From an uncultured Bacteroidota bacterium (GTDB lineage: Bacteria; Bacteroidota; Bacteroidia; Bacteroidales; P3), in NCBI GenBank assembly GCA_902790215.1, contig CADAQX010000005.1, positions 1-64,000 of the forward strand: a DNA stretch of 64,000 nucleotides. Reading direction: 5' to 3'. Made by a program: the position numbers and the translations under genes. The notes below the pieces were generated by a model that worked only from the letters and a program-made list of their open reading frames with translations, did not search any database and was not told the origin of the DNA. Position 1 is the first letter of the stretch. Each line of letters starts with the position of its first letter. Below are positions 3,832 to 59,075 of the stretch, in pieces.

Positions 3832-3907
3832 GAGGTAAGAACTAAGGACTATGAAGTAAGTGACAGCAACCCAAACTTCTTAATTCTTACTTCTCAGTTC
3901 TTACCTC
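3832..3907. repeat. inverted word array (AAGTAAGAACTAAG set)
   Basis: Perfect 12-bp ends GAGGTAAGAACT / AGTTCTTACCTC enclose further degenerate copies of the words AAGTAAG, AACTAAG and their complements around a short loop. It belongs to the same word set as the arrays at 13539, 16399, 34401, 48664 and 54427. Confidence 0.85.
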
Positions 3908-4001
3908 TAACCACATTCCCATTATACTTGGCATATATTTGCTTATGAATCTGGAGGACATTGCCTTTAACGCACTCTATCGCTTCTTCTCTATAATCCA
4001 T
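3894..4001 (-). CDS. 35-aa ORF, possible gene stump ending in a repeat array
   Basis: ATG at 4001 lies 17 nt after the stop of the ElaA-type gene. The peptide MDYREEAIECVKGNVLQIHK... looks protein-like and helical, but the last residues (RGKN) and the TGA stop are encoded by the array at 3832-3907. It may be the 5' stump of a longer gene truncated by the array. Weak call. Confidence 0.25.
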   Translation of the reverse strand: MDYREEAIECVKGNVLQIHKQIYAKYNGNVVRGKN

Positions 4002-4018
4002 TGTAATTATCTGTTAGC

Positions 4019-4456
4019 TTATCTTATCCATGTCATTTTGATGTGGGGTATGCCGTCGAGCATGAAGGTGTCGGAGGATTGCTTGAATCCCACACTTTCG
4101 TAGAAGCCTTTGGCATATTCCTGTGCCTCGATATCGATGAGTGTTGCACCGAAATGCTCAACGGCTGCATCGATGGCATGAAGCATGATTTGCTTGCCAT
4201 AGCCTTTGCCGCGTTCGGTTGTGATGACTCTGCCGATGGAAACCTGTTCCATGTGAGTTCCGGCAGGGCATACACGAGCCAGGGCGACAACCTTGTCATT
4301 GACGGTTAGCCATAGATGGATGGACTGCTGGTCGTCGCCGTCAAGGTCTTGATAGACGCAGTTCTGCTCAACCACAAAGACTTCGCTACGCACTCTCAGC
4401 AGTTCGTATAGCTCGTCGGTGGTTAATTCTTGAAATGATTTCTTATGCAATGTCAT
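4019..4456 (-). CDS. ElaA-type GNAT N-acetyltransferase
   Basis: A 145-aa single-domain GNAT matching the ElaA family in length and motifs: FQELTTDELYELLRVRSEVF at the N-terminus with VVEQNCVYQDLDGDD following, the acetyl-CoA loop region 'IGRVITTERGKGYGKQIM' at about 73-90, and 'FYESVGFKQ' near the end. ElaA-type enzymes transfer acetyl groups to amines; the substrate is not established. No operon partner other than a doubtful 35-aa ORF. Confidence 0.9.
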   Translation of the reverse strand: MTLHKKSFQELTTDELYELLRVRSEVFVVEQNCVYQDLDGDDQQSIHLWLTVNDKVVALARVCPAGTHMEQVSIGRVITTERGKGYGKQIMLHAIDAAVEHFGATLIDIEAQEYAKGFYESVGFKQSSDTFMLDGIPHIKMTWIR

Positions 4457-4460
4457 AAAT

Positions 4461-4538
4461 GAATGTGTTAATGTGTAAATGTGTTAATGTGTGAATCATT
4501 TGACTAACGAATTAACACGTTAACGAATTAACGTGTTA
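4461..4538. repeat. inverted word array (GTGTTAATGTGTAAAT set)
   Basis: Iterated GTGTTAATGTGT and GTAAAT words on the left arm, then the loop CATTTGACTAACG, then ATTAACACGTTAACGAATTA words in complement. It abuts the MITE-like element that begins at 4539. Confidence 0.85.
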
Positions 4539-4734
4539 AACCCAAATCGGTCATTAGGGTTTATGGCAGATTAGTATTTGTTCCGAGCATATTGGTCGCA
4601 TCGCTGGCGAAGTCGTAGCGGGCTACGGCGAGACAGGGATGTGGACAAGATGCCGGAAGAAATGCTGAGATGCCATAAACAGACCTAAAAAAGTGAAATA
4701 GATTGAAATGTCGGCCTAATGACCGATTTGGGTT
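4539..4734. mobile_element. MITE-like element, copy 1 (196 bp, 20-bp terminal inverted repeats)
   Basis: Left end AACCCAAATCGGTCATTAGG and right end CCTAATGACCGATTTGGGTT are exact reverse complements. No open frame of note lies inside. A second copy at 48737-48895 shares both ends and most of the interior, and a left-end half copy lies at 34331-34400. The right end overlaps the TAA stop codon of the next lipoprotein gene. The size and structure fit a non-autonomous element mobilised in trans. Confidence 0.8.
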
Positions 4735-5077
4735 AAATGTAGTCGAATAGATTAATCGTTCCTGCGTCGTTTTTGATATCAAGAGTAGGGACGTACTCTA
4801 CCATTTTTGTAGAGCCGCTGGTTTTGTCAACATTGAAATAGACTAGTGCTCCTGTATAGCTGCGGAACACCACTTGATAGGCAGAGTCGGTCTCCTCGCC
4901 CATCTCAAGAGTCATTATGTCAGGGTTGTCTTCGGCCACAGTCCAGTCATACGCACTGTGGCAATAGTTGCTGACTCCTTCGTAGGCCATTTCTTTCGTT
5001 ATTGTGCTCTTTGATGCGTTGGAAGTACATGAGCACAACAGGATTATTAATGCAAATGATAAAACTATATGTTTCAT
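4733..5077 (-). CDS. small lipoprotein of unknown function
   Basis: A 114-aa protein with a lipoprotein signal peptide (lipobox LLCSC, Cys at about 17). The mature part contains 'VVFRSYTGALVYFNV', a beta-rich stretch with no recognised family. Its stop codon TAA is formed at the boundary of the MITE-like element, so the native 3' end may have been changed by that insertion. Confidence 0.7.
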   Translation of the reverse strand: MKHIVLSFALIILLCSCTSNASKSTITKEMAYEGVSNYCHSAYDWTVAEDNPDIMTLEMGEETDSAYQVVFRSYTGALVYFNVDKTSGSTKMVEYVPTLDIKNDAGTINLFDYI

Positions 5078-5137
5078 TGTGTTAATCGTATATTATTAGT
5101 TATCTTACTGCTCAATTGTTTTTGAAGACGAAGTCGG

Positions 5138-5770: not shown

Positions 5771-5780
5771 TGTATCGCAC

Positions 5781-5853
5781 GTTATACGTTGATATGTTGA
5801 TACGTTGTGCGGCAGCCTAATTTTCAATTTTCAACTTTCAATTTTCAATTTAA
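5781..5853. repeat. composite word array (GTTGATACG + TTTTCAATTTTCAAC sets)
   Basis: GTTGATATGTTGATACGTTG words, a TGCGGCAGC core, then ATTTTCAATTTTCAACTTTC words. It supplies the TGA stop of the alpha/beta hydrolase gene at 5845 and a false N-terminal extension of the CAT-like gene. Confidence 0.85.
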
Positions 5854-7408: not shown

Positions 7409-7560
7409 GTTGAGAGTTTAGAAAATTGCTTGATTGTGTTTTTGTTGATATGTTGATACGTTGATATGTTGATATGATGCGAGCCGTATAAACTTATCAA
7501 CTTATCAACGGACAACGATAAATGCGGCAGCAACTAGCATTCACACATTAACACATTCTC
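7409..7560. repeat. composite word array (GTTGATATGTTGATACG set and others)
   Basis: Left words AAAATTGCTTGATTGTG and GTTGATATGTTGATACG, right complement AACTTATCAACTTATCAACG, then a TGCGGCAGCAA module and CATTCACACATTAACAC words. Three word sets are joined in one spacer. Confidence 0.85.
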
Positions 7561-9510: not shown

Positions 9511-9517
9511 TTTGTTT

Positions 9518-9686
9518 AAGGGTTAAAGGGATTGAGGGTTAAAGGGTATAAAGGTTAAAATGATTGCTTAATTGTCTGATTGCTTGATTGCTTGACGAAT
9601 TGAAAATTGAAAATTGAAAGTTGCTGCCGCACCACAGGTCAACAAATTTTCACTTTTCACTTTTCAATTTTCACTTTTCAATTTAA
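9518..9686. repeat. composite word array (GGGTTAAAGG, TTGCTTGATTG, ATTGAAAATTGAAAG sets)
   Basis: Three word sets in a row: GGGTTAAAGGGATTG, GCTTGATTGCTTGACG, and ATTGAAAATTGAAAG. The conserved core GTTGCTGCCGCACCACAGG and GTCAACAAATTTTC follow, then the complement words TTTTCACTTTTCAATTTTC. The core plus flanks recur almost identically at 50460-50520 and 23440-23490. Confidence 0.9.
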
Positions 9687-12700: not shown

Positions 12701-12713
12701 TATTCAATCTTCA

Positions 12714-12788
12714 AGTGAATAGTGATTAGTGAATAGTGAATACGATTCACAATTCCACAATTCACAATTTCAACTCATCAACGGACAA
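12714..12788. repeat. inverted word array (GTGAATAGTGATTAG set)
   Basis: AGTGAATAGTGATTAGTG words on the left and ATTCACAATTCCACAATTC on the right, followed by CATCAACGGACAACAAC, which recurs near 7507. It separates the two HXXEE genes. Confidence 0.8.
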
Positions 12789-12814
12789 CAACAAATCTAA
12801 AATAAAGAAAAGAC

Positions 12815-13438: not shown

Positions 13439-13605
13439 TAAAGTTGAATTTCGAATTTCGAATTTCAAAATTACTCAGACAATTCGGTGTGCGGGATAAG
13501 CGATAATGGTTTGAATACAGAAGAAGCAAGGCTTCATTTGAAGTAGGAATTATGAGGTAAGTGGCACCCGCCAAACTTCTTAATTCTTAGTTCTTACTTC
13601 TTAGC
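13425..13605. repeat. two adjoining arrays (AATTTCGAATTTCG set; AAGTAGGAATTATGAGG set)
   Basis: AATTTCGAATTTCGAATTTC at about 13444-13466, then a non-repetitive stretch, then from 13539 GAAGTAGGAATTATGAGG with the complement CTTCTTAATTCTTAGTTC up to the stop of the acetyltransferase gene. Confidence 0.75.
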
Positions 13606-15341: not shown

Positions 15342-15370
15342 TGTATTTGGTTAGAAGTTGGGTTTAAACT

Positions 15371-15510
15371 AAAAAGTAAAAACTAAGAGAATGTGTTAAC
15401 GTGTGAATGTGTGAATGTGTTAGTCCTTGGCGCGGTCAAATGACTCACGAATTAACGAATTAACACATTAACGAATTCAGAATGGTAGCCTACTTTTTAA
15501 TTTTTACTTC
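15371..15510. repeat. composite word array (GTGTGAATGTGTTAACG set inside an AAGTAAAAACTAAG set)
   Basis: Nested design: outer words AAAGTAAAAACTAAG / TTTTTAATTTTTACTTC, inner words AATGTGTGAATGTGTTAG / GAATTAACACATTAACG, and the loop GGCGCGGTCAAATGACTCA. It provides the TGA stop of the gene that ends at 15509. Confidence 0.88.
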
Positions 15511-16398: not shown

Positions 16399-16485
16399 GA
16401 AGTAAGAACTAAGAAGTAAGAATTAAGAAGTTTGGACGGCTGCCCCCCTTACTTCATAGTTCTTAGTTCTTACTTCATAGTTCTA
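16399..16485. repeat. inverted word array (GAAGTAAGAACTAAG set)
   Basis: GAAGTAAGAACTAAGAAG and AAGTAAGAATTAAGAAG on the left, TACTTCATAGTTCTTAG words on the right, loop TTTGGACGGCTGCCCCCC. The last two codons and TGA stop of the flavodoxin gene (16475) lie in this array. Confidence 0.9.
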
Positions 16486-17083
16486 AAAGCCATTTCTCCA
16501 CTTTGGCTTTGCCTGTGCGGACTTCGTGGCCGTAGATGGAGAAACCTTTGGTGACGTTTGCCTTGGGGAAGGCTTTCTTCACGTCGCTGACGCAGTTGGC
16601 CAGGCCGCTGCCCTCGTGGGTGGTGAAAGGAATGACGGTCTTGCCGGCGAGGTCGATGTCCTTGAAGAGGGTGAACATCACCTGCGGGTAGGTGCCCCAC
16701 CACACGGGGCCGCCGATGAAGACGGTGTCGTACTGCGAGAGGTCGGGGGCAGCGCCCTCGTAGGGAGGCAATTCGCCCTTGTTGGCCTCTTCCTGCGCCA
16801 GGTTGATGAGCGGCGTGTAGGCCATACCGTCGTATTTGTGGGTGACGATTTCGTACTGGTCGGCACCGGTGATTTCGCTGATGTAGTCGGCCACAATATT
16901 GGTGTTGCCGACCTCGATGTTGCCCACGCTGTAATTATCGCCCGCGTGGGAGAAGAAGATGACTATCTTGTTCATTGCTTGATTGTTTGATTGCGTTATT
17001 GCGTTAGTATTCTTTTGTTTGCTTTGCGCATTGCAGCCGGTGGCCAAAAGGAGTGCGAGGGCTGCTGTAAGGATCTTGTTCAT
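16475..17083 (-). CDS. flavodoxin-domain lipoprotein
   Basis: From ATG 17083 the protein has 202 aa: lipoprotein signal (MNKILTAALALLLATGC), a low-complexity linker with NTNAITQSNNQA, then a flavodoxin_4 domain beginning MNKIVIFFSHAGDNYSVG with 'GGPVWWGTYPQVMFTLFKDIDLAGKTVIPFTTHEGSG'. A cytoplasmic product could start at the inner ATG 16975. Both ATGs are preceded by the same array-like sequence and followed by AACAAGAT, so a short duplication created two start contexts. Upstream codons to 17224 are unlikely to be used. Confidence 0.8.
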   Translation of the reverse strand: MNKILTAALALLLATGCNAQSKQKNTNAITQSNNQAMNKIVIFFSHAGDNYSVGNIEVGNTNIVADYISEITGADQYEIVTHKYDGMAYTPLINLAQEEANKGELPPYEGAAPDLSQYDTVFIGGPVWWGTYPQVMFTLFKDIDLAGKTVIPFTTHEGSGLANCVSDVKKAFPKANVTKGFSIYGHEVRTGKAKVEKWLLEL

Positions 17084-17122
17084 TGCGTTATTGTGTGAAT
17101 GCGTTATTGTGTTAGTATTTTG
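16973..17122. repeat. duplicated array segment upstream of and inside the flavodoxin gene
   Basis: The stretch AATACTAACRCAATAACGCA... ending in ATGAACAAGAT occurs twice on the minus strand (about 17010-16965 and 17120-17073). Words TTATTGCGTTAG and TTGATTGCG link it to the other arrays. Confidence 0.7.
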
Positions 17123-17126
17123 CAAA

Positions 17127-18385: not shown

Positions 18386-18569
18386 GCCGCGCTCGTGAGC
18401 GGGGTATTGTTTTTGTACGAAAATCGGCCGCGCTCATGAGCGGAGGGCACTTTCCGGGTGAAAATCGGCCGCGCTCGTGAGCGGAGGGCACTTCCGGGCT
18501 GAAAATCGGCCGCGCTCGTGAGCGGGGTGCGTTTTCCGGCCTCGTCCGTGGTTGCGCTCATGAGCGCGG
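18386..18569. repeat. five-unit tandem palindromic array, about 41-bp period
   Basis: The palindrome CGCTCRTGAGCG occurs at 18390, 18430, 18471, 18512 and 18556, at spacings of 40, 41, 41 and 44 bp. The spacer consensus is close to GAGGGCACTTTCCGGG then TGAAAATCGGC. The period is not a multiple of three, so the array is not coding. It starts 8 bp after the stop of the DUF6261 gene and so lies in its 3' untranslated region. Confidence 0.92.
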
Positions 18570-18576
18570 TGTGTTT

Positions 18577-19350
18577 TCACGCCTCCGTCGGCTCTTCGCC
18601 CGGTGTCGCGGGGTCGGCGTCGAGCTCGGGCGTCTTCTTGTCGCGGTGCGAGGGTGCCATCGCGTGCTTGCGGAAGTATTCGAGGTCTTCGCTGACGAGG
18701 GCGACGAGTTTCTGTGCCTCGGCGCGGTCGGGGTTGAGGAGGGCGTAGGCGTTGGTGAGGCGCACGAGGGTGAGGTAGGCGCGGTCGGTGGCTTCGCGGG
18801 CGGCCTTGAGCTCGCCCATGATTTGCGCCGAACGCTGGTCGTTGCGCTCGGCGAGGAGCTGGCGCACGCGGTCGTTGGCGGCCTTGAGGCGGTCGGCGAT
18901 GATTTCGAGGCCGAGGCGGCGCAGCTGGGTGCGGTACTGGAAGAGGTCCTGCAGCATGTTGTCGACGAGGCCGCTCTCCTTCATGTAGTTCTCCGTGGTC
19001 TTGATTTTGTAGTTGCGGACGACGCGCAGCAGGGGCTCGGCGTGCTGTGCGGTCTCGGCGATGGGGAACTTGGCGTAGGCCTTGACGGTGTCGCGCAGCG
19101 AGGCGTAGAGCTTGTCGCGCTCCTCGTCGGCGGCCTTCAGGGGGTCGGTGAGCTCGCTGTCGCGGTAGCGCTTGAAGGCTTCGTCCTCGGCCCTGAAGGC
19201 GGTGTCGAACTCGTCCTTGCCCTTGCGCCAGAGCTCGTGGTCGACGGGCAGCTCGGCGGTGCGCTTGCCGAAGGTGGTCATGTACTCGTAATGGGGCGCG
19301 TTGGCCGCCCGCGCGATGGAGATTTGGTCGATTTGCATAGGGATTTCCAT
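18577..19350 (-). CDS. DUF6261-like helical protein
   Basis: A 257-aa, almost wholly helical, highly charged protein: 'ADEERDKLYASLRDTVKAYAKFPI..TAQHAEPLLRVVRNYK', 'NYMKESGLVDNMLQDL', and 'AYLTLVRLTNAYALLNP' match the Bacteroidetes DUF6261 pattern. Function unknown. GC content is higher than around it. The gene ends directly in the 41-bp palindromic array, and I suspect the two form a unit. Confidence 0.75.
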   Translation of the reverse strand: MEIPMQIDQISIARAANAPHYEYMTTFGKRTAELPVDHELWRKGKDEFDTAFRAEDEAFKRYRDSELTDPLKAADEERDKLYASLRDTVKAYAKFPIAETAQHAEPLLRVVRNYKIKTTENYMKESGLVDNMLQDLFQYRTQLRRLGLEIIADRLKAANDRVRQLLAERNDQRSAQIMGELKAAREATDRAYLTLVRLTNAYALLNPDRAEAQKLVALVSEDLEYFRKHAMAPSHRDKKTPELDADPATPGEEPTEA

Positions 19351-21160: not shown

Positions 21161-21370
21161 ATGCCTGAACGTGTGAATGTGTTAACGTGTTTGATGTTTT
21201 TAGGGGAGAAAGGTTTTAGGGTTTTAAGGTTTAATGGTTTTAAGGGAGGAAGGTTTCAATAATTGAAAATTGAAAGTTGAAAATTGAAAGTTGCTGCCGC
21301 GGTCAAATTACTCAAACAATCAAGCAATCACACAATCAGGCAATCAACAGATTTACGAATTAACGAATTC
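21161..21370. repeat. largest composite array: four nested word sets
   Basis: Order: CGTGTGAATGTGTTAACG; GGTTTTAGGGTTTTAAGG; AATTGAAAATTGAAAGTTG; core GTTGCTGCCGCGGTCAAATT; ACAATCAAGCAATCACAC; ACGAATTAACGAATTC. The first and last sets pair with each other around the others. The core fuses the GCTGCCGC module with the GGTCAAATTACTCA module seen separately elsewhere. Confidence 0.9.
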
Positions 21371-23410: not shown

Positions 23411-23508
23411 ATTGAAAATTGAAAGTTGAAAATTGAAAGTTGCTGCCGCACCATTTGTCAACAAATTTCAATTTTCACTTTTCATTTTTCAATTCGTTTC
23501 AATTTTCT
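23411..23508. repeat. inverted word array (ATTGAAAATTGAAAGTTG set)
   Basis: AATTGAAAATTGAAAGTTG twice, core GTTGCTGCCGCACCATTTGT, CAACAAATTTCAATTTTC, then TTTTCATTTTTCAATTCG words reaching to the -7 box of the OmpA gene. Confidence 0.9.
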
Positions 23509-24658: not shown

Positions 24659-24823
24659 AATAATTCTGATTGCTTGATTGCCTGAATACTTGATTGCCTG
24701 AGTGATAAATGGTTTAAAGGTTAAAAGGTTTAAGGGTTTGAGGGTTTGATACACTAAAACCTTAAGACCTTTCTCCCATAAAACCTTAAAGCATTTACAC
24801 ATTCAAGCCTTCAAGCAATCATT
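24659..24823. repeat. composite word array (TGATTGCTTGATTGCC; AAGGTTTAAGGGTTTG sets)
   Basis: GATTGCTTGATTGCCTGAAT words, GGTTAAAAGGTTTAAGGG words, complement CTTAAGACCTTTCTCCC, then ACATTCAAGCCTTCAAGC words. Two sets are nested. Confidence 0.85.
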
Positions 24824-24824
24824 T

Positions 24825-25063: not shown

Positions 25064-25154
25064 ACAAGTGCCTCAACGAAAAATACGTTGTTACCATTCC
25101 GTCGCGACGCTACTGGATATAAGGGATGAAACTTGTCATACTTTAGTCAATAAT

Positions 25155-28308: not shown

Positions 28309-28314
28309 CAAGTT

Positions 28315-34400: not shown

Positions 34401-34464
34401 GAGGTAAGAAATAAGAGCCAGGAGCTGAGGCATACAATCCTGGTTCTTAACTCTTATCTCTTAC
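34401..34464. repeat. inverted word array (GAGGTAAGAAATAAGAG set)
   Basis: GAGGTAAGAAATAAGAGCC and GGTTCTTAACTCTTATCTC arms around a CTGAGGCATACAATC loop. Confidence 0.85.
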
Positions 34465-42539: not shown

Positions 42540-42540
42540 A

Positions 42541-42712
42541 ATTGAAAAGTGAAAAATGAAAATTCGTTAATTCGTAAATGTGTTAATTCGTTAGTCAAGG
42601 ACTCACACATTCTGAACTCGTTAATTCGTTAATTCTTGAGTCTTTGATGCGCCAAGGACTAACACGTTAACACGTTTACACATTCACACATTTAATCAGA
42701 CAATCAAGCAAT
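42541..42712. repeat. composite word array (GAATTAACACATTTACG and CAATCAAGC sets)
   Basis: Words TTCGTTAATTCGTAAATG, loop GTTAGTCAAGGACTCACAC, a second loop TTTGATGCGCCAAGGAC, then CACGTTAACACGTTTAC and ACAATCAAGCAATTTG. The TTG start of the next gene is at its very end. Confidence 0.88.
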
Positions 42713-43750: not shown

Positions 43751-43811
43751 TTGAATTCGTTAATTCGTAAATTCTTTAATTCGTTAGTCAAGCATTCTCA
43801 ATTCTTAACAA
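43749..43811. repeat. word array (GAATTCGTTAATTCGTAAATTC set)
   Basis: Iterated TTAATTCGTAAATTC and TTCGTTAGTCAAGC words between the SUMF1 gene and hpt. It lies where the hpt start codon would be expected. Confidence 0.75.
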
Positions 43812-44713: not shown

Positions 44714-47700
44714 ATGAAAAAAGGTTGGAAAATAGCCCTCATCTCCCTCGGCTCTCTGATAGGGACAATAGCCATTGTGGTGGCTGTGGCGTGCTGGCTG
44801 CTCTTTACCCCCGCACGGCTCACATCCATTGTAAATAAACTGTCCGATAAATACCTGCTGTGCGAAAACCACTTCGGCAAGGTAAGCCTCTCCCTCTTCA
44901 AAACCTGGCCCGACGCCGGTCTGGAGGTGGAGGACGTGGTGCTGATTAACCCCTACCGTCTGCCCGAAGGCAACGCACTGGCGGCAAGTGCCGTGCAAAA
45001 CGACACACTGGCTCGGATGAAGTCGCTCACCGTAGGCATTGACCTGAAGAGATTCCTGAAAGACCGGACCATCATTGTGCGGCAGCTTAGGGTGGATGAT
45101 ACCTACGCCAACCTCTATACCGCTCCCGACGGCTGGAGCAACCTCGACATCTTCGCCCCCGGCGAAGAAACACCCCAAGAGGAAGAAAGCACCGGCGAAC
45201 CGATGCAGGTGCAGCTGGAAAAAGTCAGTGTCAACAACCTCTCGGCGCAGTACTGCAACCTGCAGCAGAATATGCTGGCCAGTTTGGGCGGCCTGGATTT
45301 GACCCTCAAGGGCTCCATGCTCGACGGGACGGTGGATGCCGACCTCGATGCCGAAGCCCCCAACCTGATGGTGGATATGCGCGACAGCGTGGGCAACCCC
45401 TCGCTCTGCGCCCGGGTCGCCGACCTAGCGCTGCGGGCCGAGGGCAAAGGCTCCACCGACACACTGCAGGGCTGCCTGAAACTCGTCATGCCCAAAGGAC
45501 AGGTTGTCATGGGCTCCACAGCCTACACCACCGATGCAATGCTTGTCTCGCGCCGTGACCTCCTGACGCTCGACGTGCCTTTTGCCGCCAATCTGGACAA
45601 GATGCGCTTCTCCCTGTCCGATGCATCGCTGCAATTGGTCGATTATGAAATGACAGTGAACGGCGATGTGGCCCTTGCCAATGAGGGGAACCCCATGGCC
45701 ATGGACCTCCGTCTCGCTGCCGACCGCTGGCAGGTGGGTGACCTGATTGCCATGCTCCCGCCGTTCATCACCCAAAGCCTCAAAGGCATGCGTGTCGATG
45801 GCAAAGCGTCGCTGGCAGCCCATGTCTATGGACAGATGGCCGAGGGACGCATGCCCCTGGTCGATGCCGAAGTGGAGTTGGCCAAAGGCTCCTTTGCCGC
45901 ACCCAAGATGCTGCCGGCACCCCTGCGCGACATCGACGCCAAGCTCTCCGCACGGCTCAACCTCTCGTCCGACACCGCTTTCAGCGGCATATCCAAAGTT
46001 GATATTGACCATCTCAATGCCAAACTCAAGCATTCCACGGTAAGTGTCTCCGGCACAGTTGACGACCTGATGGGCGACATGCTGGTCGACGCCCACATCA
46101 AAGGAAATGTGGAAATGCCCGACCTGCAGTGTTTTCTGCCCGACACCATGCCCCTTGACATGCAAGGCACTGCTCGGCTCAACCTTTACGCCAAGAGCCG
46201 CCTCTCGGCATTGACCGGCATGGCTCTCGAAAAAATCAAGGCCACCGGCACCATGCGGCTCAGCAAGCTCGATGTCACCTACGACAGCATCCATGCCAAC
46301 TCCCCGCAACTGGATGTGGCGCTGGCTCTCCCCACCAAACGACAGAGCAGCAAAGTGGCCGAACTGATAGGCGTGCAGGTGAAGGGTGGCAGCCTTTATG
46401 TCAAAATGGACAACCTCAACATGGATGCCCACATCGACAACCCCGATATCAAGGTAGGCCTTCCCAACATCCTGAACGACAAGCAGCCCCTGGCTGCCGC
46501 CTTCAATATTAAGGCCAGCAGGATAAATGCCGAAAAGGACTCGATGATCGTCTATTCCGACACACTCCTGCTAAAAGGCAGCGTGCGCAACGACACCACA
46601 CAGGACAACGTGCTCAAGCAGTGGAACCCCGATGTCGATATCGACCTCCACCGCGGTGTGGTGGCCATGGCCGGCATGTCCGAGGCGGTGCGTATGCCCT
46701 CCTTCAAGTTCAACTACAAACCCGAAGTGTGCCAGATAGAGCAGGCCGACATCCTGTGGGGAGTCTCCGACTACCACCTTTCGGGCAAAGTGTATGGCGT
46801 TGAAGACTGGCTCAGCCACAAAGCCATGCTCCACGGCACACTCGATTTCAGCTCGCAGTATGCCGACATCGACCAGCTCATGGGCATCCTCAGCGGTATG
46901 GGCACCGACGAAGACACCCTGCAGCAGCAGCGCATGGAGGACAACGTGCCCGCCGAGGCCAACCCCTTCATCGTGCCCAAGGATGTCAACGTGCGCCTCA
47001 ACACCAGCATCACCCGTTGTGTGGCCTTCGGCAACGACCTCAACACACTGGGCGGGTCGCTCACAATCAACAACGGTGTGGCGGTGCTCGACCAGATGGG
47101 TTTCACCTGCAAGGCCGCGCGCATGCAGCTCACCGGCGTCTACAAGTCGCCCAGAGTCAACAACCTCTTCACTGGACTCGATTTCCACCTGCTCGACATA
47201 CAGATAGAAGACCTGCTCGACATGATACCCTCCATCGACACCCTCGTGCCGATGCTCAAGGCCTTCAAGGGCAAAGCCAACTTCCATCTGGCGGCAGAGT
47301 GCGCCCTCGACGCCTTCTACCATCCCAAGATGAGCACCCTCCTCGGAGCGGCGGCCATCAGCGGCAAAGACCTTGTGGTGCTCGACAACGAAAGCCTTGC
47401 CTCCATGGCGCGGCTGCTGCAGTTCAAGAACTGGCGCGAGAAAGACAACAACATCGGTGTCGATAGCATCAGTGTCGAGGCGCAAGTGGTTCGCCGCAAC
47501 ATCACCGTCTATCCCTTCTTGCTCAACCTCCACAACTACCAGCTCTGCATCGGAGGCCACCACTCGCTCGACAACAAGTGCAGCTACCATCTCGAACTGC
47601 TCAAATGTCCGCTGCCGGCACGCTTAGCCATCGATGTGACGGGCAACATCTCCAAGCCCAAGATAGAGCTTGGCCAGGTGATGTATTCCGATATGTACAA

Positions 47701-47785
47701 ACCCGAAGAGAAAGACTATCTGAGCGCCTACACCCTGCGGGTGAAGAATCAGGTACGTCAATACCTTGAAGCAAATGTACGGTAA
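44714..47785 (+). CDS. AsmA-family inner-membrane/periplasmic protein
   Basis: A 1023-aa protein: N-terminal membrane anchor (MKKGWKIALISLGSLIGTIAIVVAVACWLLF), then 'TPARLTSIVNKLSDKYLLCENHFGKVSLSLFKTWPDAGLEVEDVVL', the AsmA N-terminal pattern, and a long beta-rich periplasmic region with an AsmA-like C-terminal domain ('AFKGKANFHLAAECALDAFYHPKMSTLLGAAAISGKDLVVLDNE'). AsmA-like proteins are thought to form lipid-carrying bridges between the membranes. Confidence 0.9.
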   Translation: MKKGWKIALISLGSLIGTIAIVVAVACWLLFTPARLTSIVNKLSDKYLLCENHFGKVSLSLFKTWPDAGLEVEDVVLINPYRLPEGNALAASAVQNDTLARMKSLTVGIDLKRFLKDRTIIVRQLRVDDTYANLYTAPDGWSNLDIFAPGEETPQEEESTGEPMQVQLEKVSVNNLSAQYCNLQQNMLASLGGLDLTLKGSMLDGTVDADLDAEAPNLMVDMRDSVGNPSLCARVADLALRAEGKGSTDTLQGCLKLVMPKGQVVMGSTAYTTDAMLVSRRDLLTLDVPFAANLDKMRFSLSDASLQLVDYEMTVNGDVALANEGNPMAMDLRLAADRWQVGDLIAMLPPFITQSLKGMRVDGKASLAAHVYGQMAEGRMPLVDAEVELAKGSFAAPKMLPAPLRDIDAKLSARLNLSSDTAFSGISKVDIDHLNAKLKHSTVSVSGTVDDLMGDMLVDAHIKGNVEMPDLQCFLPDTMPLDMQGTARLNLYAKSRLSALTGMALEKIKATGTMRLSKLDVTYDSIHANSPQLDVALALPTKRQSSKVAELIGVQVKGGSLYVKMDNLNMDAHIDNPDIKVGLPNILNDKQPLAAAFNIKASRINAEKDSMIVYSDTLLLKGSVRNDTTQDNVLKQWNPDVDIDLHRGVVAMAGMSEAVRMPSFKFNYKPEVCQIEQADILWGVSDYHLSGKVYGVEDWLSHKAMLHGTLDFSSQYADIDQLMGILSGMGTDEDTLQQQRMEDNVPAEANPFIVPKDVNVRLNTSITRCVAFGNDLNTLGGSLTINNGVAVLDQMGFTCKAARMQLTGVYKSPRVNNLFTGLDFHLLDIQIEDLLDMIPSIDTLVPMLKAFKGKANFHLAAECALDAFYHPKMSTLLGAAAISGKDLVVLDNESLASMARLLQFKNWREKDNNIGVDSISVEAQVVRRNITVYPFLLNLHNYQLCIGGHHSLDNKCSYHLELLKCPLPARLAIDVTGNISKPKIELGQVMYSDMYKPEEKDYLSAYTLRVKNQVRQYLEANVR

Positions 47786-47798: not shown

Positions 47799-47914
47799 TA
47801 ATTGCTTGAATGCTTGATTGTGTTAATGCTTGAATTATTACTTGAATGCTTGAATGTGTAAATGCTTGAGTGAAAATACTCAAACAATCAAGCAATCAGA
47901 CAGTCAAGCAATCA
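47799..47914. repeat. inverted word array (TTGCTTGAATGCTTGATTG set)
   Basis: ATTGCTTGAATGCTTGATTG words, TACTTGAATGCTTGAATGTG words, then ATACTCAAACAATCAAGC and CAGACAGTCAAGCAATC. Very similar to the array at 28315. Confidence 0.9.
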
Positions 47915-48002
47915 ATAAGACGCTTGCCGTTTCTCAACTTTTTTTGCGTTTTTTCGAGATAGGGTGTAAACGATTGTCGGTCTCTGGAATGTTAAAAGTG
48001 GT

Positions 48003-48663: not shown

Positions 48664-48722
48664 TAGAAAGAACTAAGAACAGAGGTGAACAAATCTTAGT
48701 TCTTAACACTTAACTCTTACTT
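48664..48722. repeat. inverted word array (AAAGAACTAAGAACAG set)
   Basis: AAAGAACTAAGAACAGAGG and ATCTTAGTTCTTAACAC arms with an ACTTAACTCTTACTTG end. Confidence 0.85.
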
Positions 48723-48736: not shown

Positions 48737-48895
48737 AACCCAAATCGGTCGTTAGGGTTTATGCCAGATTAGTATTTGTTTCGAGCAGATTGGCCTCATC
48801 GCTGTCGAAGGCGTAGCGGGCTACGGCGAGACGCATAAAGAGACCTGAAAAAAGCGAGATTGATTGAAAAGTCGGTCTAATGACCGATTTGGGTT
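48737..48895. mobile_element. MITE-like element, copy 2 (159 bp)
   Basis: Ends AACCCAAATCGGTCGTTAGG and TCTAATGACCGATTTGGGTT, one difference each from copy 1. The interior matches copy 1 (GCCAGATTAGTATTTGTT; GCGTAGCGGGCTACGGCGAG) but lacks a block of about 37 bp. Its right end again overlaps the TAA stop of a minus-strand gene. Confidence 0.82.
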
Positions 48896-50403: not shown

Positions 50404-50410
50404 AATAATT

Positions 50411-50530
50411 GTTTGAAAAGTTAAGAGTTGAAAGTTGTTTGGGAATTGAAAATTGAAAATTGAAAATTGAAAGTTGCTGCCGCACCACAGGTCAACAAAT
50501 TTTCACTTTTCACTTTTCAATTTAACAATT
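50411..50530. repeat. inverted word array (ATTGAAAATTGAAAG set)
   Basis: GAATTGAAAATTGAAAATTG words, core GTTGCTGCCGCACCACAGG, TCAACAAATTTTCAC, then TTTTCACTTTTCAATTTAAC words. The core and flanks match 9600-9686 almost base for base. Confidence 0.92.
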
Positions 50531-50624
50531 TTCAATTTGTAAAATAACGGCTTTTGCACTGTTTTATTGTGTGTGGCAAAGAAAAACATAGGGTTGGGCA
50601 ATAAAATTGGAGAAGGAACGTTAT

Positions 50625-50765
50625 AAAGTTGAAAATTGAAAAGTGAAAAATGATTGCTTTATTGTCTGATTGCTTGATTGCTAGAGTTATTTGACCGCGC
50701 AAGCCACTCAGGAATTAACACAATCAAGCATTCAAGCAATATTCCACTTTCACCTTTCATTCTAA
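50625..50765. repeat. composite word array (ATTGAAAAGTGAAAAATG; GATTGCTTGATTGC sets)
   Basis: Words AATTGAAAAGTGAAAAATG and CTGATTGCTTGATTGC, loop TTTGACCGCGCAAGCCACTC (the complement of the CGCGGTCAAA module), then ACAATCAAGCATTCAAGC and CACTTTCACCTTTCATTC. The 50531-50624 stretch between the two arrays shows nothing else. Confidence 0.88.
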
Positions 50766-50796
50766 TTGATTTAACTAATTAATACAGTAGTTTGTT

Positions 50797-52206
50797 ATGT
50801 CTTCTTTTGCTTCACTTTCTGCATGGGGATGGTTGATACAGTTCTTTATCATCGTCGTTGCCATGCTGTTGGCCAACCTTATCCGTTGCAATGTGCCGCT
50901 ACTGAAACGCAGTCTGCTACCCTCGGCGTTGGTGGCGGGATTGATAATTCTTTGCCTGAAACCGTTTGGGTTTTTCTCGGCATTGGTCAGCAAACCATCC
51001 ATGGAGATTATCACGTATCACGCCTTGGGTCTCGGTTTTGTGGCTATGGCCTTGAAGAACAAGAAAATCAAGAGTGCCACCACTACCATGAAGGTGGTGG
51101 AGACGGGAGCCGTCACAGCCAGCACCTATATCCTGCAGGGATTGGCCGGGCTGCTGATCACCATCCCGCTGTTCCTGCTGTGGAACAACCGTGATTTCTT
51201 CTATGCGTCGGGTCTGCTGTTGCCCATGGGCTACGGGCAGGGACCGGGGCAGGCTCTCAATTTCGGTGTGACTTATTCCGGCTGGGCCGAGGGTCAGGGC
51301 ATCGCGTTCCACGGTGCCGACTTTGGCCTGAGCATTGCGGCCACGGGCTTTATTGTAGGCAGCTTGGTGGGTGTGATATATATGAACATCCTGCGCCGCA
51401 AGGGCAGGCTGAAAAGGCAGGATGGCGACTATAAGGAGGAATACACGCTGGCCGACTACCAGTCGGAGAACGAGATACCCCACGCCGAGTCTATTGACAA
51501 GCTGACGGTGCAGGTTAGCATGGTGTTGATGGTCTATCTGCTGGTGTTCCTGCTTATGTATGGGGTGGAGAACCTCGACCTCGGCAATTTCGGCACCAAG
51601 ACCCTCAAGCCCATGGTGTGGGGCTTCAACTTCCTGTGGGGTACCCTGCTGGGTGTGCTGGTGAAGGTGATTATCAACCGTCTGCGCAAGACCCACCTGA
51701 TGCATCGGGAATATATCAACAACTTTACTCTCGACCGCATTGCCGGCACCTGTTTCGACTTCATGATTGTGGCCGGCACCGCTGCCATCGACTTCAACAA
51801 CCTGCGCGGCATATGGATGCCGTTGGTGCTGGTGTGCACGGTGGGCGCCGTGGTGACGTTCTTCTATGTGCGCGCCTGTGCCAAGCACCTCTATCCCGAC
51901 TACCAGTACGAGGGTTTCTTCTCGATGTTCGGCATGCTCACGGGCACGGCCAGCAACGGCATGATTCTGCTGCGCGAGATTGACCCCAAGTTCGAGACCC
52001 CCGCCGCCAACAACCTGGTGCTGCAGACCATCCCGGCCATCGTCTTCGGTTTCCCCGTTCTGCTGCTCATGGGGTTCGGCCCGCAGAGCATGAAGAGCTG
52101 CCTCATTACCCTCGGCATCCTGGCAGCGGCATTCCTTGTCTTTGCCATCTTCATTTTCAGGAAGAAATTGTTTAAAAAATCCAATAAGTCTAATAAGTCC
52201 AAATAG
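50797..52206 (+). CDS. GltS-like sodium/glutamate symporter
   Basis: A 469-aa polytopic protein with 10 or more helices in two inverted halves. Family motifs: 'YASGLLLPMGYGQGPGQALNFG' and 'GFFSMFGMLTGTASNGMILLREIDP', the paired re-entrant regions of the ESS/GltS family. It is longer than E. coli GltS (401 aa) because of a hydrophilic central loop near 200-240. Substrate glutamate is inferred from the family only. Confidence 0.88.
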   Translation: MSSFASLSAWGWLIQFFIIVVAMLLANLIRCNVPLLKRSLLPSALVAGLIILCLKPFGFFSALVSKPSMEIITYHALGLGFVAMALKNKKIKSATTTMKVVETGAVTASTYILQGLAGLLITIPLFLLWNNRDFFYASGLLLPMGYGQGPGQALNFGVTYSGWAEGQGIAFHGADFGLSIAATGFIVGSLVGVIYMNILRRKGRLKRQDGDYKEEYTLADYQSENEIPHAESIDKLTVQVSMVLMVYLLVFLLMYGVENLDLGNFGTKTLKPMVWGFNFLWGTLLGVLVKVIINRLRKTHLMHREYINNFTLDRIAGTCFDFMIVAGTAAIDFNNLRGIWMPLVLVCTVGAVVTFFYVRACAKHLYPDYQYEGFFSMFGMLTGTASNGMILLREIDPKFETPAANNLVLQTIPAIVFGFPVLLLMGFGPQSMKSCLITLGILAAAFLVFAIFIFRKKLFKKSNKSNKSK

Positions 52207-52210: not shown

Positions 52211-53551
52211 ATGAAAAAAGCACTTGTATTACTCCTCATTTTCAATTTTCAATTTTCAATTTTCAATTCCCTGAGGGCGCAGGACAGTGCCAATGTCCGC
52301 AAGGGCTGGACATTCGGTGTGCTGCCCAGTTTTGCCTACGATGCCGACCTGGGGCTGCAACTCGGACTGCTGTCCAACGTCTATTACTTCGGCGACGGAG
52401 CTGTCTATCCCGACTATTACCATTCTTTCTATGTCGAGGCTGCCACCACGTCAAAGCACTACGGCCTTTACAGGTTTGCATACGACTCCAAGTACCTCAT
52501 CCCCGGTCATCGCCTGAGCATCGACCTCACCTATCTGCCCGACCAGATGTGCGATTTCTACGGTTTTAACGGCTATGAGGCTCGGTATCGCCCCGATTAC
52601 GCCGACCAGTCGAGTGATCTTTACCGCACCCGTGCCTACTACAAATTCAAGCGCGACATGTTCCGCCTCAGTGCCGACCTGCAGGGCACCATTGCCAAGC
52701 CTTGGTACTGGAATGCGGGCATCGGGCTGCTCTACTACAATGTAGGTACAGTTGATGTGGCACGGCTGAACAAGTACACCAAGGACGAAGATGCAAAACT
52801 GCCTGAGGGCGTCGGGACGCTCTATGACCAATATGTGACGCTGGGCTATATCAGCCCTGCCGAAGCCAACGGGGGCTTCCATCCCTACCTGCACGGAGGG
52901 CTTACCTTCGACACCCGCGACCGTCAGCAGAATCCCCGCCAAGGCATCCATGCCGACGCTTTCCTCACCTATTATGCCGGCTTGGGCAAAATGTCCGAAT
53001 ACAACGACGTCAAGTTCAATGCCGCCTGGCGGCACTATCTGCCCATCATCCCCGACCGCCTCACTTTTGCCTACCGTCTGGGTACCCAGCTGAATGTGGC
53101 GGGCAAGAGTCCCTTCTATCTTAACACCTACCTCAACCAGCTGTATATGCAGCGCGTCATCTATGAGGGACTGGGCGGCGCCAACTCCATTCGTGGCATC
53201 ATGCGCAACCGCATCCTCGCCCAGGGCGTGGCCTTCGCCAATGTGGAGTTCCGCGTGCAGGTGGTGCACTTCAAGATTGGCAAGGAGAACTTCTATATAG
53301 GCCTCAACCCCTTCATGGATGCCGGCATGGTGGTGCAGCCGTACGACAGAGTGGTGGCAGACCCTGAATATCCAATAGGATTAACCCAGAATAGGGACAA
53401 TCTCTATGCTCCCCACCTCTCGGCGGGCTGCGGTCTCAAGGTTGCTATGAACGACAACTTTGTCCTCAGTGTGGATTGGGCTACAGCCCTCGACAAGCAG
53501 GACAACAACAAGTTCAGCAACCTCTACATCAAGATGGGATATATGTTTTAA
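52211..53551 (+). CDS. BamA/TamA-type outer-membrane barrel (surface antigen) protein
   Basis: A 446-aa protein from ATG 52211, 4 nt after the transporter stop. The signal peptide (MKKALVLLLIFNFQFSIFNS) is partly encoded by tandem ATTTTCA heptamers. The rest is a beta-barrel of the Omp85 C-terminal type without POTRA domains: 'HPYLHGGLTFDTRDRQQNPRQG', 'YEGLGGANSIRGIMRNRILAQG' (the conserved R-G loop) and a C-terminal 'LYIKMGYMF'. It likely inserts or exports a surface component. Confidence 0.88.
   Translation: MKKALVLLLIFNFQFSIFNSLRAQDSANVRKGWTFGVLPSFAYDADLGLQLGLLSNVYYFGDGAVYPDYYHSFYVEAATTSKHYGLYRFAYDSKYLIPGHRLSIDLTYLPDQMCDFYGFNGYEARYRPDYADQSSDLYRTRAYYKFKRDMFRLSADLQGTIAKPWYWNAGIGLLYYNVGTVDVARLNKYTKDEDAKLPEGVGTLYDQYVTLGYISPAEANGGFHPYLHGGLTFDTRDRQQNPRQGIHADAFLTYYAGLGKMSEYNDVKFNAAWRHYLPIIPDRLTFAYRLGTQLNVAGKSPFYLNTYLNQLYMQRVIYEGLGGANSIRGIMRNRILAQGVAFANVEFRVQVVHFKIGKENFYIGLNPFMDAGMVVQPYDRVVADPEYPIGLTQNRDNLYAPHLSAGCGLKVAMNDNFVLSVDWATALDKQDNNKFSNLYIKMGYMF
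52238..52269 (+). repeat. in-frame word array inside a signal peptide (four ATTTTCA heptamers)
   Basis: ATTTTCAATTTTCAATTTTC words identical to the right arm of the intergenic arrays encode IFNFQFSIFNS. Three heptamers span 21 nt, so the reading frame is preserved by each block of three. Confidence 0.9.
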
Positions 53552-53553
53552 AG

Positions 53554-53645
53554 AATTGAAAGTTGAAAGTTGAAAATTGAAAGTTGCTACCGCACTCGGA
53601 TAATTCTCAATTCTCAACTTTCAACTCTCAACTTTTGAGAGTTGA
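53554..53645. repeat. inverted word array (ATTGAAAGTTGAAAG set)
   Basis: GAATTGAAAGTTGAAAGTTG words, core GTTGCTACCGCACTCGG, ATAATTCTCAATTCTCAAC and TTTCAACTCTCAACTTTTG words. Confidence 0.9.
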
Positions 53646-54442: not shown

Positions 54443-54494
54443 GAACAAAGAGGATTTTTCAGTCGAACTTCTTAACTCTTAGTTCTTACTTCCA
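54427..54494. repeat. inverted word array (GAGGTAAGAAATAAGAAC set)
   Basis: AGAGGTAAGAAATAAGAAC and ACTTCTTAACTCTTAGTTC arms. It contains the stop codon of the preceding gene. Confidence 0.85.
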
Positions 54495-57107: not shown

Positions 57108-57272
57108 TTATTCCGCTGCAGGGCTGAAGTCTTCCTTGCCTACGCCGCAAAGGGGGCATACCCAGTCGGCGGGCAGGTCTTCGAAGGCGGTGCCGGGGGC
57201 AATGCCGTTGTCGGGGTCGCCCTTGGCGGGATCATACTCATAGTGGCAGATGTCGCAAATGTACTTTTTCAT
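57108..57272 (-). CDS. rubredoxin
   Basis: A 54-aa protein from ATG 57272. Both iron-binding knuckles are present: [11 protein letters not shown] (C-x2-C) and [13 protein letters not shown] (C-x2-C), with the usual '[15 protein letters not shown]' between them. It carries single electrons in anaerobic metabolism or oxidative-stress defence. It has its own promoter and terminator and is monocistronic. Confidence 0.96.
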
Positions 57273-57333
57273 GGTGTTGGGTTTTTGATTGTTGTTTTTA
57301 AAAGATGAATTGTTCTCAAGGAATTTGAGAGTG

Positions 57334-57341
57334 CAAAAATA
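57334..57341 (-). promoter_or_regulatory. -7 box (TATTTTTG) for rubredoxin
   Basis: TATTTTTG on the minus strand, 61 bp before the rubredoxin start. Confidence 0.6.
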
Positions 57342-57368
57342 CGCATTATTTCCGAAATAAACACTTTT

Positions 57369-57453
57369 GAATAATTGAAAGTTGAAAATTGAAAGTTGAA
57401 AATTATCCGGGTGCGGCAGCCATTTTCACTTTTCACTTTTCACTTTTCAAGCA
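57369..57453. repeat. inverted word array (AATTGAAAGTTGAAAATTG set)
   Basis: ATAATTGAAAGTTGAAAATTG words, core GGGTGCGGCAGCC (reverse of the GCTGCCGCACC module), then TTTTCACTTTTCACTTTTC words. Confidence 0.9.
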
Positions 57454-57497
57454 ATATTTTTCACAAGTATGCGTTATATTAAAAACATTTTTGCGCT

Positions 57498-58958
57498 ATG
57501 ATTCGTTTTGTTCGTTTTCTAAGTATCGCTATATTAGTGGCATGCACCGGAACGGTGGCCGCACAGACCAATATCACCATCCACGGCGAGGTAGTCGATG
57601 GGGCAGGGAAGGAGGTATTCCTCTACCGCTACACCGACATGCTCACCCGCACGGAAGTAATGGTGGACCATTCCACCATCAACACCAACCGCACCTTTGA
57701 GTTGAAAGCCTACGCCAACTACCCCACCATGATGATGCTGCAGATTGAGAACTACAGCCAGTCGTTCTTTGTAGAGCCGGGACGCGACTACGAGGTGTAT
57801 GTGCCGCGTTTTGACTGGAACATCGACGAGCAGCGCAATGTCTTTCTGGAGCCCGAGGTGCTGCCGGTGGAGTTTGTCAACATGCCTGCCGGGGAACTGA
57901 ACGGGCTTATCTCGAATTTCGAGGCTGTGGTGGCCGATTATATCGATGCGCACCGGATGTACTTCGACGCCCGTTTCCGTCCGCAGAAACGCTATTTCGA
58001 CAGCCTCGAGGCCGTGGTGGCCAAGCAATGCCCCGACACGAAAAACGAGTTCTTCAACCGCTATAAGCGCTATCAGCTGGCAAGCATGAAATACAGCTTC
58101 CATTTCGACACACGGCGCGGAATGGTGAACCGCTACATCAAGAACCAGCCCATACTGTACTACGACGACAACTACATGGCCTTCTTCACCACACTGTTTG
58201 CCAATTCGGTGTCGAAAGGAACAACGAAAATACCCGTGTGGCAGATGGCCTGGTGGGTGAACAATTTGAACGTGAACGTCTATCTCGACTCACTGGGCAC
58301 CGACACACTGCTGCGCAACGAGCAGGTGCGCGAGCTGGTGGCGCTCCAGGCGCTGCAGGAAGCCTACTATCAGCCCCGTTACTATGAAAGCGACAAAGTG
58401 GTGCAGATGATAGACCTGATTGGCAACCGCTCCAAATTCCCTGAACACAAGATTCTGGCCCAGCGGTTGGTGGAGTCGTTCCGTCAGCAGGAACAGGGAG
58501 CCGAGACTCCAGACTTCACCCTGCCTGATGTGGACAAGAAGCAGGTGTCATTGGCTGGTCTGAAAGGGAAGTGGGTGTATATGGCCTTTGTCCGAGTGGG
58601 CGACCCCAACTGCCTGGCCGAGATAGAGACCATGGCGCACTTCCGCGACAGCGTCTATGCCCGGAGCAAGAACGTCGAGTTTGTCACCATCTGCTGCGAC
58701 CGCGAGTTCCAAAAGATGTACCATTTCCTGAAGAACAGCCGCCGTGGGCAGAAATACAACTGGACGTGGCTGCACTTCAACGGCAACTACAAATTGCTGG
58801 AGCATTATCAAGTTGTTTCCTTCCCCTACTTCATCCTCATCAACCCCGAAGGGCAGATGCAGTACACCGTCACCCCGTCGCCCGCCAGCGGCTTCTTCCT
58901 CAATGCCCCGTGGCAGCCCAAACAGAAAGAGGAGGAACGACCGTTCTTCCTGCGATAA
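57498..58958 (+). CDS. thioredoxin-like (TlpA/DUF4369-type) secreted protein lacking the CxxC
   Basis: A 486-aa protein with signal peptide (MIRFVRFLSIAILVACTGTVAAQ; VACT may be a lipobox). Residues 25-120 resemble the DUF4369 beta domain ('ITIHGEVVDGAGKEVFLYRYTD'). A helical middle follows, and residues about 340-475 are a thioredoxin fold: 'PDFTLPDVDKKQVSLAGLKGKWVYMAFVRVGDPNC'. The active-site WCxxC is replaced by VGDPNC, leaving one cysteine, so classical disulfide exchange is unlikely. 'VVSFPYFILINPEG' is the cis-Pro loop. Confidence 0.85.
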   Translation: MIRFVRFLSIAILVACTGTVAAQTNITIHGEVVDGAGKEVFLYRYTDMLTRTEVMVDHSTINTNRTFELKAYANYPTMMMLQIENYSQSFFVEPGRDYEVYVPRFDWNIDEQRNVFLEPEVLPVEFVNMPAGELNGLISNFEAVVADYIDAHRMYFDARFRPQKRYFDSLEAVVAKQCPDTKNEFFNRYKRYQLASMKYSFHFDTRRGMVNRYIKNQPILYYDDNYMAFFTTLFANSVSKGTTKIPVWQMAWWVNNLNVNVYLDSLGTDTLLRNEQVRELVALQALQEAYYQPRYYESDKVVQMIDLIGNRSKFPEHKILAQRLVESFRQQEQGAETPDFTLPDVDKKQVSLAGLKGKWVYMAFVRVGDPNCLAEIETMAHFRDSVYARSKNVEFVTICCDREFQKMYHFLKNSRRGQKYNWTWLHFNGNYKLLEHYQVVSFPYFILINPEGQMQYTVTPSPASGFFLNAPWQPKQKEEERPFFLR

Positions 58959-58959
58959 A

Positions 58960-59075
58960 ATATTGATTGCTTGAATGCTTAATTGTGTTACTTCGTGACG
59001 TTGTTTTGGCTCGGCATAGTGAGCAAGCTCCCTCTGCTCTCACCCTGTACAACGTTAATGCTTGAGTGCTGGCGC
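58960..59075. repeat. word array (ATTGCTTGAATGCTTAATTG set) interrupted by a hairpin
   Basis: The words GATTGCTTGAATGCTTAATTG and GTTAATGCTTGAGTGC are separated by 58998-59055, whose ends ACGTTGT / ACAACGT pair and which contains GTGAGCA / TGCTCTCAC. Looks like a small insert in an array. Confidence 0.6.

Follow-up and report, generated by a model that had tools for sequence, protein, structure and literature searches.

What are the word-built arrays that lie in so many intergenic spacers of an uncultured Bacteroidales genome, and how do they come to be there? The question is raised by a stretch of 64,000 nucleotides, called the window below (positions 1–64000 of contig C5 of genome G000, a draft of 2.98 Mb). 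The arrays in its spacers share a hairpin plan, in which a left arm of 7–9 bp words is followed by an apex and then by a right arm of reverse-complement words. A sequence-only reading had proposed either a copying process or a regulatory hairpin. The analysis described here suggests that the arrays probably form a superfamily of short (about 60–180 bp), non-autonomous dispersed repeats, imperfect palindromes of words that spread as units. Unit copies, polymorphic sites, nesting, exchange at the apex, a position at gene ends, a polarity and copies in coding sequence were all observed directly.

The window was analysed together with C1:1–180000 and C2:1–220000 of the same genome, giving an own-genome sample of 464 kb. 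Genomes are labelled G0xx (G000 being the window's own), contigs C and loci L0xx. Genes were called with a crude dicodon finder (coverage by contig 67–83%), and positions given as "by eye" were read manually and carry no script score.

Occurrence and anatomy of the arrays

The arrays are real. An inverted repeat with a score of at least 15 was present in 83 of 184 own spacers of 60–900 bp, compared with 1.8 expected when each spacer was dinucleotide-shuffled five times, and a score of at least 20 was reached in 48, compared with 0.0 expected. The excess is not wholly due to word arrays, as 45 of the 83 positive spacers had a word-built hairpin, 14 only a repeat resembling a miniature inverted-repeat transposable element (MITE-like) and 24 neither. 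A gene-blind scan of the 464 kb gave 156 hairpins in groups that can overlap: 32 MITE-like, which were taken out by pattern before counting; 15 coding, which were kept separate from the noncoding counts; 61 noncoding with word arms; and 49 other noncoding, which fail the word-type rule, although a few nevertheless resemble word arrays. Both the word sets and the word-hairpin class (score at least 15, periodic arm at least 60%) were drawn up post hoc. When 100 kb were shuffled in 100-base blocks, 2 hairpins were found, compared with 44 in the real stretch. Tandem Repeats Finder returned 72 rows for the window, mainly of periods 7, 8 and 14–16 in spacers, some of them not word arrays. Identical words occur in separately assembled relatives, so an assembly artefact is an unlikely explanation.

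The earlier estimate of about 25 array-bearing spacers agrees with the 24 clusters found by a strict word scan and the roughly 26 spacers found by eye; one cluster lies within a gene (52240–52267) and one is possibly due to chance (16975–16990). The eight word sets then listed are all present, and more exist. The sets distinguished here are F1, TTGA[AG]A[AG]; F2, GATTGCTT; F3, TGTGTTAA/TTCGTTAA; F4, GTTGATAT; F5, AAGGTTTA; F6, AA[GCT]TAAG; F7, GTGA[AT]TA; F8, GATAGA plus three free bases; and F9, GAATTTC. F8 in the own genome and GTCGGAG and GTGAACTGTGATC in relatives are additions to the original list.

The description of words followed by their reverse complement suits many arrays but fails for the TTCGTTAA words (F3) at 43754–43790 (+ strand), which are one-armed. 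The array at 21161–21370, singled out earlier as the clearest nested case, turned out to be the least palindromic of those checked: it is a five-set chimera, F3-F5-F1-(GCTGCCGCGGTCAAAT apex)-F2'-F3', with no inverted pair at seed 9 and an inverted-repeat score of 16 against a shuffle maximum of 14. Nesting is found at 24666–24821, where F5 lies in F2 as F2(F5 F5')F2', at 50625–50760, an F1(F2 F2')F1' hairpin with a GACCGCGCAAGCC apex, at C2:123513 (F2 in F1), and at C1:70106 and C2:3932 (F4 in F2).

Certain apexes recur with particular sets, namely GTTGCTGCCGCACCCGGATAA with F1, GAGTGGCTGGCGCRGTCAAATYACTC with F2 and GATGCGAGCCGTATAA with F4, and the motif GCTGNCGC is common to the F1 and F2 apexes. 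It lies within 14 nt of the apex in 17 of the 61 word hairpins, and 31 of 37 noncoding copies are at array apexes by eye. Halves of different sets are joined at GCTGNCGC: an F1 left arm with an F2 right arm at C2:68091 and at window position 21292, and with an F4 right arm at 5808, within a chimera (5779–5851) of GTTGATAT words (F4), a GGCTGCCGCAC apex and TTGAAA words (F1). In relatives GCTGNCGC adjoins other words (L057, L182, L103, L104, L105 and L117, by eye), and most other noncoding copies there lie away from arrays. The significance of the motif rests on its position, as it is not enriched in noncoding sequence (0.34 per kb, compared with 0.46 in coding sequence) and its excess over control motifs in relatives is modest: 18 compared with 3–13 in loci of the genus and 22 compared with 5–19 in the wider group, for six control motifs, one of which had no match in the genus loci.

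Exact inverted copying of one arm into the other found weak and mixed support. In 30 two-armed TTGAAA hairpins the correlation of word variants between arms was weak, at 0.32 (p 0.05) and 0.10 (p 0.3). Arms matched their own partners no better than the arms of other arrays for F3 and F4 and slightly better for F2 (p 0.07); F1 arms matched clearly better, but the hairpins had been chosen by that same score. The right arms of L046 and L050, which share an apex, differ by one word. As one arm is in many cases no inverted copy of the other, the suggestion of a short template iterated in both orientations is unsupported as it was worded.

Copying, insertion and turnover

The strongest evidence that arrays are copied as units comes from the F2 array at 58966–59080, which carries a 65-bp non-word insert. 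Counting the window copy, seven own loci have this segment at an identical position within an F2 array, the six others being 93–96% identical to it; a further copy (88%) is in G017. One copy of this marked array is nested inside an F1 hairpin. The segment itself (window ~58990–59055) has inverted ends, ACGTTGT/ACAACGT, and may be a mobile element in its own right. A second multi-copy array is the F1 hairpin at 50421–50542: the part from 50440 to 50540 has copies of 95.7–98.8% identity over 85–92 bp at four other places in the genome, one of them window 9598–9684.

Orthologous sites were compared between 26 window spacers, some without arrays, and 20 congener stretches. Both flanks were found in at least one relative for ten of the 26, one of the ten being too far apart to compare. 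In the spacer at 12701–12814 the window has an 83-bp array of the GTGAATAG set (F7; 12711–12793) with AATCT on each side, where the G017 spacer is 24 bp long, with a single AATCT and no array. The stretch at 9514–9684, which holds F5 and F2 words and an F1 hairpin with a GTTGCTGCCGCACC apex, exceeds the orthologous spacers of G002 and G021 by about 120 bp, and no array is present in those. Both arrays of 50404–50862, the multi-copy F1 hairpin and the nested one described above, are missing in the three relatives compared, and the F1 hairpin at 57336–57480 (spacer 57273–57497) is missing in G017 and G018. Several short congener contigs end near compared spacers (G006:C123, C135 and C155; G009:C36; G011:C46; G019:C21), as would be expected if dispersed repeats break assemblies.

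Other sites show replacement. C2:7142 exists in three states, an F1/F2 nest in the own genome, an F3/F4 nest in G021 and no array in G017. At 58959 an array of another kind is present at 8 of 20 close-relative loci by eye, and the window's array at none. The GTGTTAAT/ACGAATTA hairpin (F3) at 4462–4540 has an ortholog in G021 (site 4457) with the same outer left words and a different apex. A similar swap of the apex, in frame and with the outer words retained, is seen within a coding gene common to the own genome, G021 and G017, which seems to be of the A2M family. At C2:41792 an array separates the last sense codon that is shared from the stop codon used by G021 and G017, and its own TGA now terminates the gene (frame by eye). 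Flanking 5-mers common to both sides were found for 16 of the 61 arrays, compared with 7.8 expected.

A copying process, as put forward from sequence alone, is thus upheld by near-identical units at several loci and by orthologous sites that lack the array or have a different one. It had been held that the proposal would fail if orthologous spacers carried unrelated sequence no more word-like than shuffled spacers; half of this was found, in that orthologous spacers are often without an array, but where arrays are present they lie far above shuffles.

Distribution across genomes

The exact 16-mer AATTGAAAATTGAAAG is present in 17 of the genus's 25 genomes, none of which gave a reversed-control match, and in 1 of 16 others. 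The F2 pattern matches the own genome 387 times and is missing from seven of 24 congeners, again with no reversed-control match. The expansion of word sets is lineage-specific. Of 395 Bacteroidota genomes, 23 have three consecutive F1 words (17 of 171 genera), at loci that, where shown, are mostly one-armed and in some cases apparently coding (by eye); the reversed TTGARAR control (104 own matches) was compromised by the overlap of the reversed word with genuine words. The relatives of the window protein encoded at 57498–58958 numbered 79 loci, from Bacteroidales or Bacteroidetes metagenome-assembled genomes, many from ruminants or horses; by title they included one Bacteroidaceae, one "bacterium P3" and two Candidatus Colimorpha.

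Polarity and position at gene ends

The word hairpins have a fixed polarity. G-bearing words lie 5' and C-bearing words 3', alike on both strands, in 59 of the 61 own word hairpins, and the two others resemble ordinary hairpins rather than word arrays. Seven named sets account for 54 of the own hairpins, and all 54 are G-left, as are all 19 genus loci; the proportions are 31 of 49 for other noncoding, 8 of 32 for MITE-like and 9 of 15 for coding hairpins. Stop triplets follow the same pattern, with entry-side and exit-side counts of 543 and 162 in own hairpins and of 155 and 42 in genus loci. Within 30 nt of entry, 56% of 108 arms present stops in all three frames, compared with 4.6% outwards and 20% in dinucleotide shuffles. 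Three divides neither 7 nor 8, so at these periods a single stop in each word reaches all frames; MacGregor has made the same three-frame remark for TAACTGA repeats (PMC4679880).

The arrays lie close to the ends of genes. For own word hairpins the neighbouring stop codon is at a median distance of 4.5 bp (42 of 60 within 30 bp) and the neighbouring start codon at 84.5 bp (16 of 56 within 30 bp), and between genes on the same strand the upstream stop is the nearer for 35 of 42 hairpins. The 58 hairpins used for location (3 of the 61, in very long spacers, were left out) are distributed as 42 per 148 same-strand, 9 per 36 convergent and 7 per 38 divergent spacers. In genus loci the median stop-codon distance is 6 (21 of 24 within 30 bp). 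Among array-adjacent genes, 14 of 42 have a stop codon that overlaps a word, compared with 44 of 331 genes overall; the use of TGA did not clearly differ (15 of 42 compared with 105 of 331). In the window, F1 hairpins begin at the stops of genes 22580–23410 (array 23409–23505) and 52211–53551 (array 53551–53636), an F2 hairpin (47801–47918) lies downstream of gene 44714–47785, and the 3' ends of three further genes carry an F6 hairpin (16399–16484; gene starting at 16475, − strand), an F2 hairpin (28313–28395; gene 28392–28697) and F1 words with an F3 hairpin (29302–29400; gene 29400–30662).

Arrays within coding sequence

The arrays had been described as intergenic, which is true of most. Of 234 word-array arms in own and congener sequence, 30 fall within gene calls, 27 of them in the stop-poor and 3 in the stop-bearing orientation; these do not all represent independent events, several being orthologous to one another or paired within a single array. 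The exception in the window, 52240–52267, consists of F1 words in the stop-poor orientation within the first codons of gene 52211–53551, whose product is an Omp85-like protein according to Pfam. They encode the N-terminal core MKKALVLLLIFNFQFSIFNSLRAQD, the counterpart of which in G017 is MKKHLVPFLAFSFCLLVSVPLSAQD. Both are predicted, by eye, to be signal peptides, MKKALVLLLIFNFQFSIFNSLRAQD forming the hydrophobic core, and that of the window is probably functional. The N-terminus of the G019 ortholog (L025) also seems to be built from a word array, possibly a second independent case (by eye). In other Bacteroidota, at L133, L134 and L136, TTGAGAA words occur in apparent coding sequence and read NSQFSILNSQLS in the stop-free direction (by eye).

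Evaluation of the explanations

Could the arrays instead be functional 3'-end hairpins, terminators or stabilisers of mRNA kept after stop codons by selection on RNA structure? The short distance to stop codons (median 4.5 bp) and median folding z-scores of −5.5 and −5.0 on the two strands are in keeping with this, as is C2:48957, where the GATAGA cores are retained and the spacers changed between the own genome and G021 (by eye). But the arrays are missing in many orthologs, they also occur in divergent spacers (7 hairpins per 38), and an ordinary T-tailed hairpin exists beside arrays at C2:84242. The hairpin and T run of an intrinsic terminator were rarely seen together, a T-rich tail being present on 15 of 122 sides, a raw count without a shuffle baseline. 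Nor was there a wobble signature of RNA-structure selection, G·U and A·C oppositions in the mRNA sense numbering 28 and 30. A role as 3'-end hairpins is therefore improbable, and the regulatory hairpin suggested earlier receives little support. No more probable is local expansion, in which slippage in place and snap-back synthesis from chance seeds would build each array and any likeness between arrays would come from composition. The whole-word difference in length between relatives, in the right arms of L046 and L050, the partly independent arm variants and the unusual apexes of some arrays (L171, L172) would suit such an origin. It had already been weakened by the 65-bp marker and the near-identical copies, and the 16-mer found in 17 of 25 genus genomes without a reversed-control match and the apexes shared between arrays stand against it as well. 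Slightly less probable still is that the word cores are arrayed binding sites for a DNA- or RNA-binding protein, spaced at 7–9 bp and inverted to serve dimer pairs. GATAGA-NNN does have a constant core and free spacer bases, and a binding role has been proposed for TAACTGA repeats (PMC4679880), but a single genus has some ten different cores, and the arrays are rapidly lost at orthologous genes.

Spread as units, the explanation that we favour, has its own difficulties. A near-empty counterpart was found by strict automatic search for 4 of 104 own and congener arrays, with a clean 5-bp duplication in one, and no fixed element ends were seen among the arrays. The search for a mover took in two families: reverse transcriptase (RVT_1, PF00078) was not found in the own genome, and Y1 transposase (PF01797) had two matches there and none in the array-bearing G006, G014 and G017 (completeness 97% for G014, 72–82% for G006 and G017). 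Neither a reverse transcriptase nor a Y1/RAYT transposase is thus supported as the mover. In the wider group, 9 of 11 loci are G-left, stop triplets number 56 on the entry and 44 on the exit side, and the gene-end rule fails, with a median distance of 99 bp and 1 of 8 within 30. G-polar words that are nearly stop-free exist (L186; GTCGGAG), F3 and F5 words carry TAA in both directions, and the polarity extends to divergent spacers (7 of 7), for which translation entry offers no explanation. The last observation suggests that polarity is a fixed trait of the element and not the result of a local filter. Our reading is that stop polarity lets the element land harmlessly at gene ends.

Under unit spread, arrays would move in trans by transposition or ectopic recombination and their arms would grow and shrink by whole-word slippage, so that word sets would diverge by lineage. 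They would settle at the 3' ends of genes because these are a free zone. Their words tend to carry all-frame stops on the side from which a ribosome enters, from either direction, so that an insertion at or into the last codons would halt translation at once. Reversed, most word sets are stop-poor and could be absorbed into proteins. The arrays would persist without a host function, genes occasionally adopting one as a stop codon or signal peptide. A more tentative version, which we think doubtful, is that what is inherited is the apex (GCTGNCGC and relatives), the arms being continually rewritten, halves swapped at the apex and word sets replaced in each lineage. The main constraint on the words would then be that translation is blocked inwards from both sides and open outwards.

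Other arrays and repeats of the window

The remaining arrays of the window are varied. F6 words form a hairpin at 3832–3907 (inverted-repeat score 19 against a shuffle maximum of 12), a half array beside GAATTTC words (F9) at 13446–13604, a short hairpin adjoining a CCCAAATCGG repeat at 48668–48720 (by eye) and a short half array between convergent genes at 54470–54492. F3 words form a hairpin at 15366–15503 (score 21; GGCGCGGTCAAATGACTC apex by eye), a one-armed array at 17084–17126 (by eye) and, between F1 and F2 words, a double hairpin at 42540–42711. At 7439–7560 a GTTGATAT hairpin (F4, apex GATGCGAGCCGTATAA) is linked via GCTGCCGC to F3 words.

Three other repeats are present. A repeat of about 340 bp with CGTCGTCATTTATTCGATCGTT ends (24806–25148 and 34596–34704) occurs at least 12 times in the own genome, the window's copies included; this CGATCG repeat adjoins the nested array at 24666–24821, and several other copies directly adjoin word arrays, e.g. 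at C2:93140, C2:194427, C9:208993 and C16:61756. A MITE-like repeat of 200 bp, whose ends are CCCAAATCGGTCATTAGG / CCTAATGACCGATTTGGG, lies at 4536–4738, ~34335–34460 and ~48738–48894, and has many copies of about 88–96% identity in the own genome, G006, G017 and G021. A 41-bp tandem repeat in three copies (18419–18539) lies beside gene 18577–19350.

Comparison with known repeats

The nearest kin of the arrays are the heptamer stem of Nostoc and the TAACTGA arrays. In the Nostoc tRNA-Leu(UAA) intron the P6b stem consists of degenerate heptamers (Class I TDNGATT, Class II NNTGAGT), with whole-word indels and replacement of one word class by another (PMC4476775). The arrays resemble P6b, as there described, in having a stem of tandem degenerate words with a constant core, free positions and complementary sides. 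They differ in occupying many intergenic loci with 7–9 bp words of about ten sets, in their nesting and in their position at gene ends, the Nostoc stem being confined to one intron locus in cyanobacteria. No tRNA is present in the window and Rfam gave no match at gathering score, so the setting of a tRNA-Leu group I intron does not apply.

TAACTGA direct repeats have been described from Beggiatoaceae, Cyanobacteria and five Bacteroidetes (MacGregor 2015, PMC4679880). In that work they are intergenic heptamers with three-frame stops forward and open in reverse, patchily distributed and with no known mover, and mixed heptamer assemblages are noted in Elizabethkingia. The arrays share with them, on that account, the intergenic words, the stops one way and openness the other, and the patchy spread. 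TAACTGA is there a single direct word found mostly upstream of starts in Maribeggiatoa, whereas the present arrays lie downstream of stops, pair many different words in inverted form and have recurring apexes. The own 464 kb contain 0 TAACTGA direct pairs and 11 single copies.

Repetitive extragenic palindromic (REP) elements are short dispersed palindromes, of which the CGTC class has no known dedicated transposase (PMC3733652). The arrays are longer and have arms of tandem words, and a GTAG or CGTC foot tag was found in 1 of 61 arrays each (7.1 and 1.1 expected), without excess. The attC sites of integrons are imperfect palindromes directly after a stop codon, and the arrays are like them in this respect. 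The attC cores RYYYAAC and GTTRRRY were found together in 0 of 61 arrays and in the opposite order in 1 of 61. A description of these Bacteroidales arrays was not recognised in the literature searched, which covers few subscription journals.

Conclusions

In the articles cited, heptamer arrays have been met piecemeal, as one intron in Nostoc and one word in Beggiatoaceae. Here many sets, nested, chimeric and coding copies and array-free orthologous sites occur in one genus, so the origin and spread of word arrays can be tested by comparing closely related strains. Stop polarity concretely explains how gene ends on either strand can accommodate an element, and the example of the signal peptide suggests that a noncoding repeat may supply part of a protein. 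If inheritance through the apex should prove true, the lineage would be one that spreads without a reverse transcriptase or Y1 transposase, and from which hosts would draw stop codons, linkers and signal peptides.

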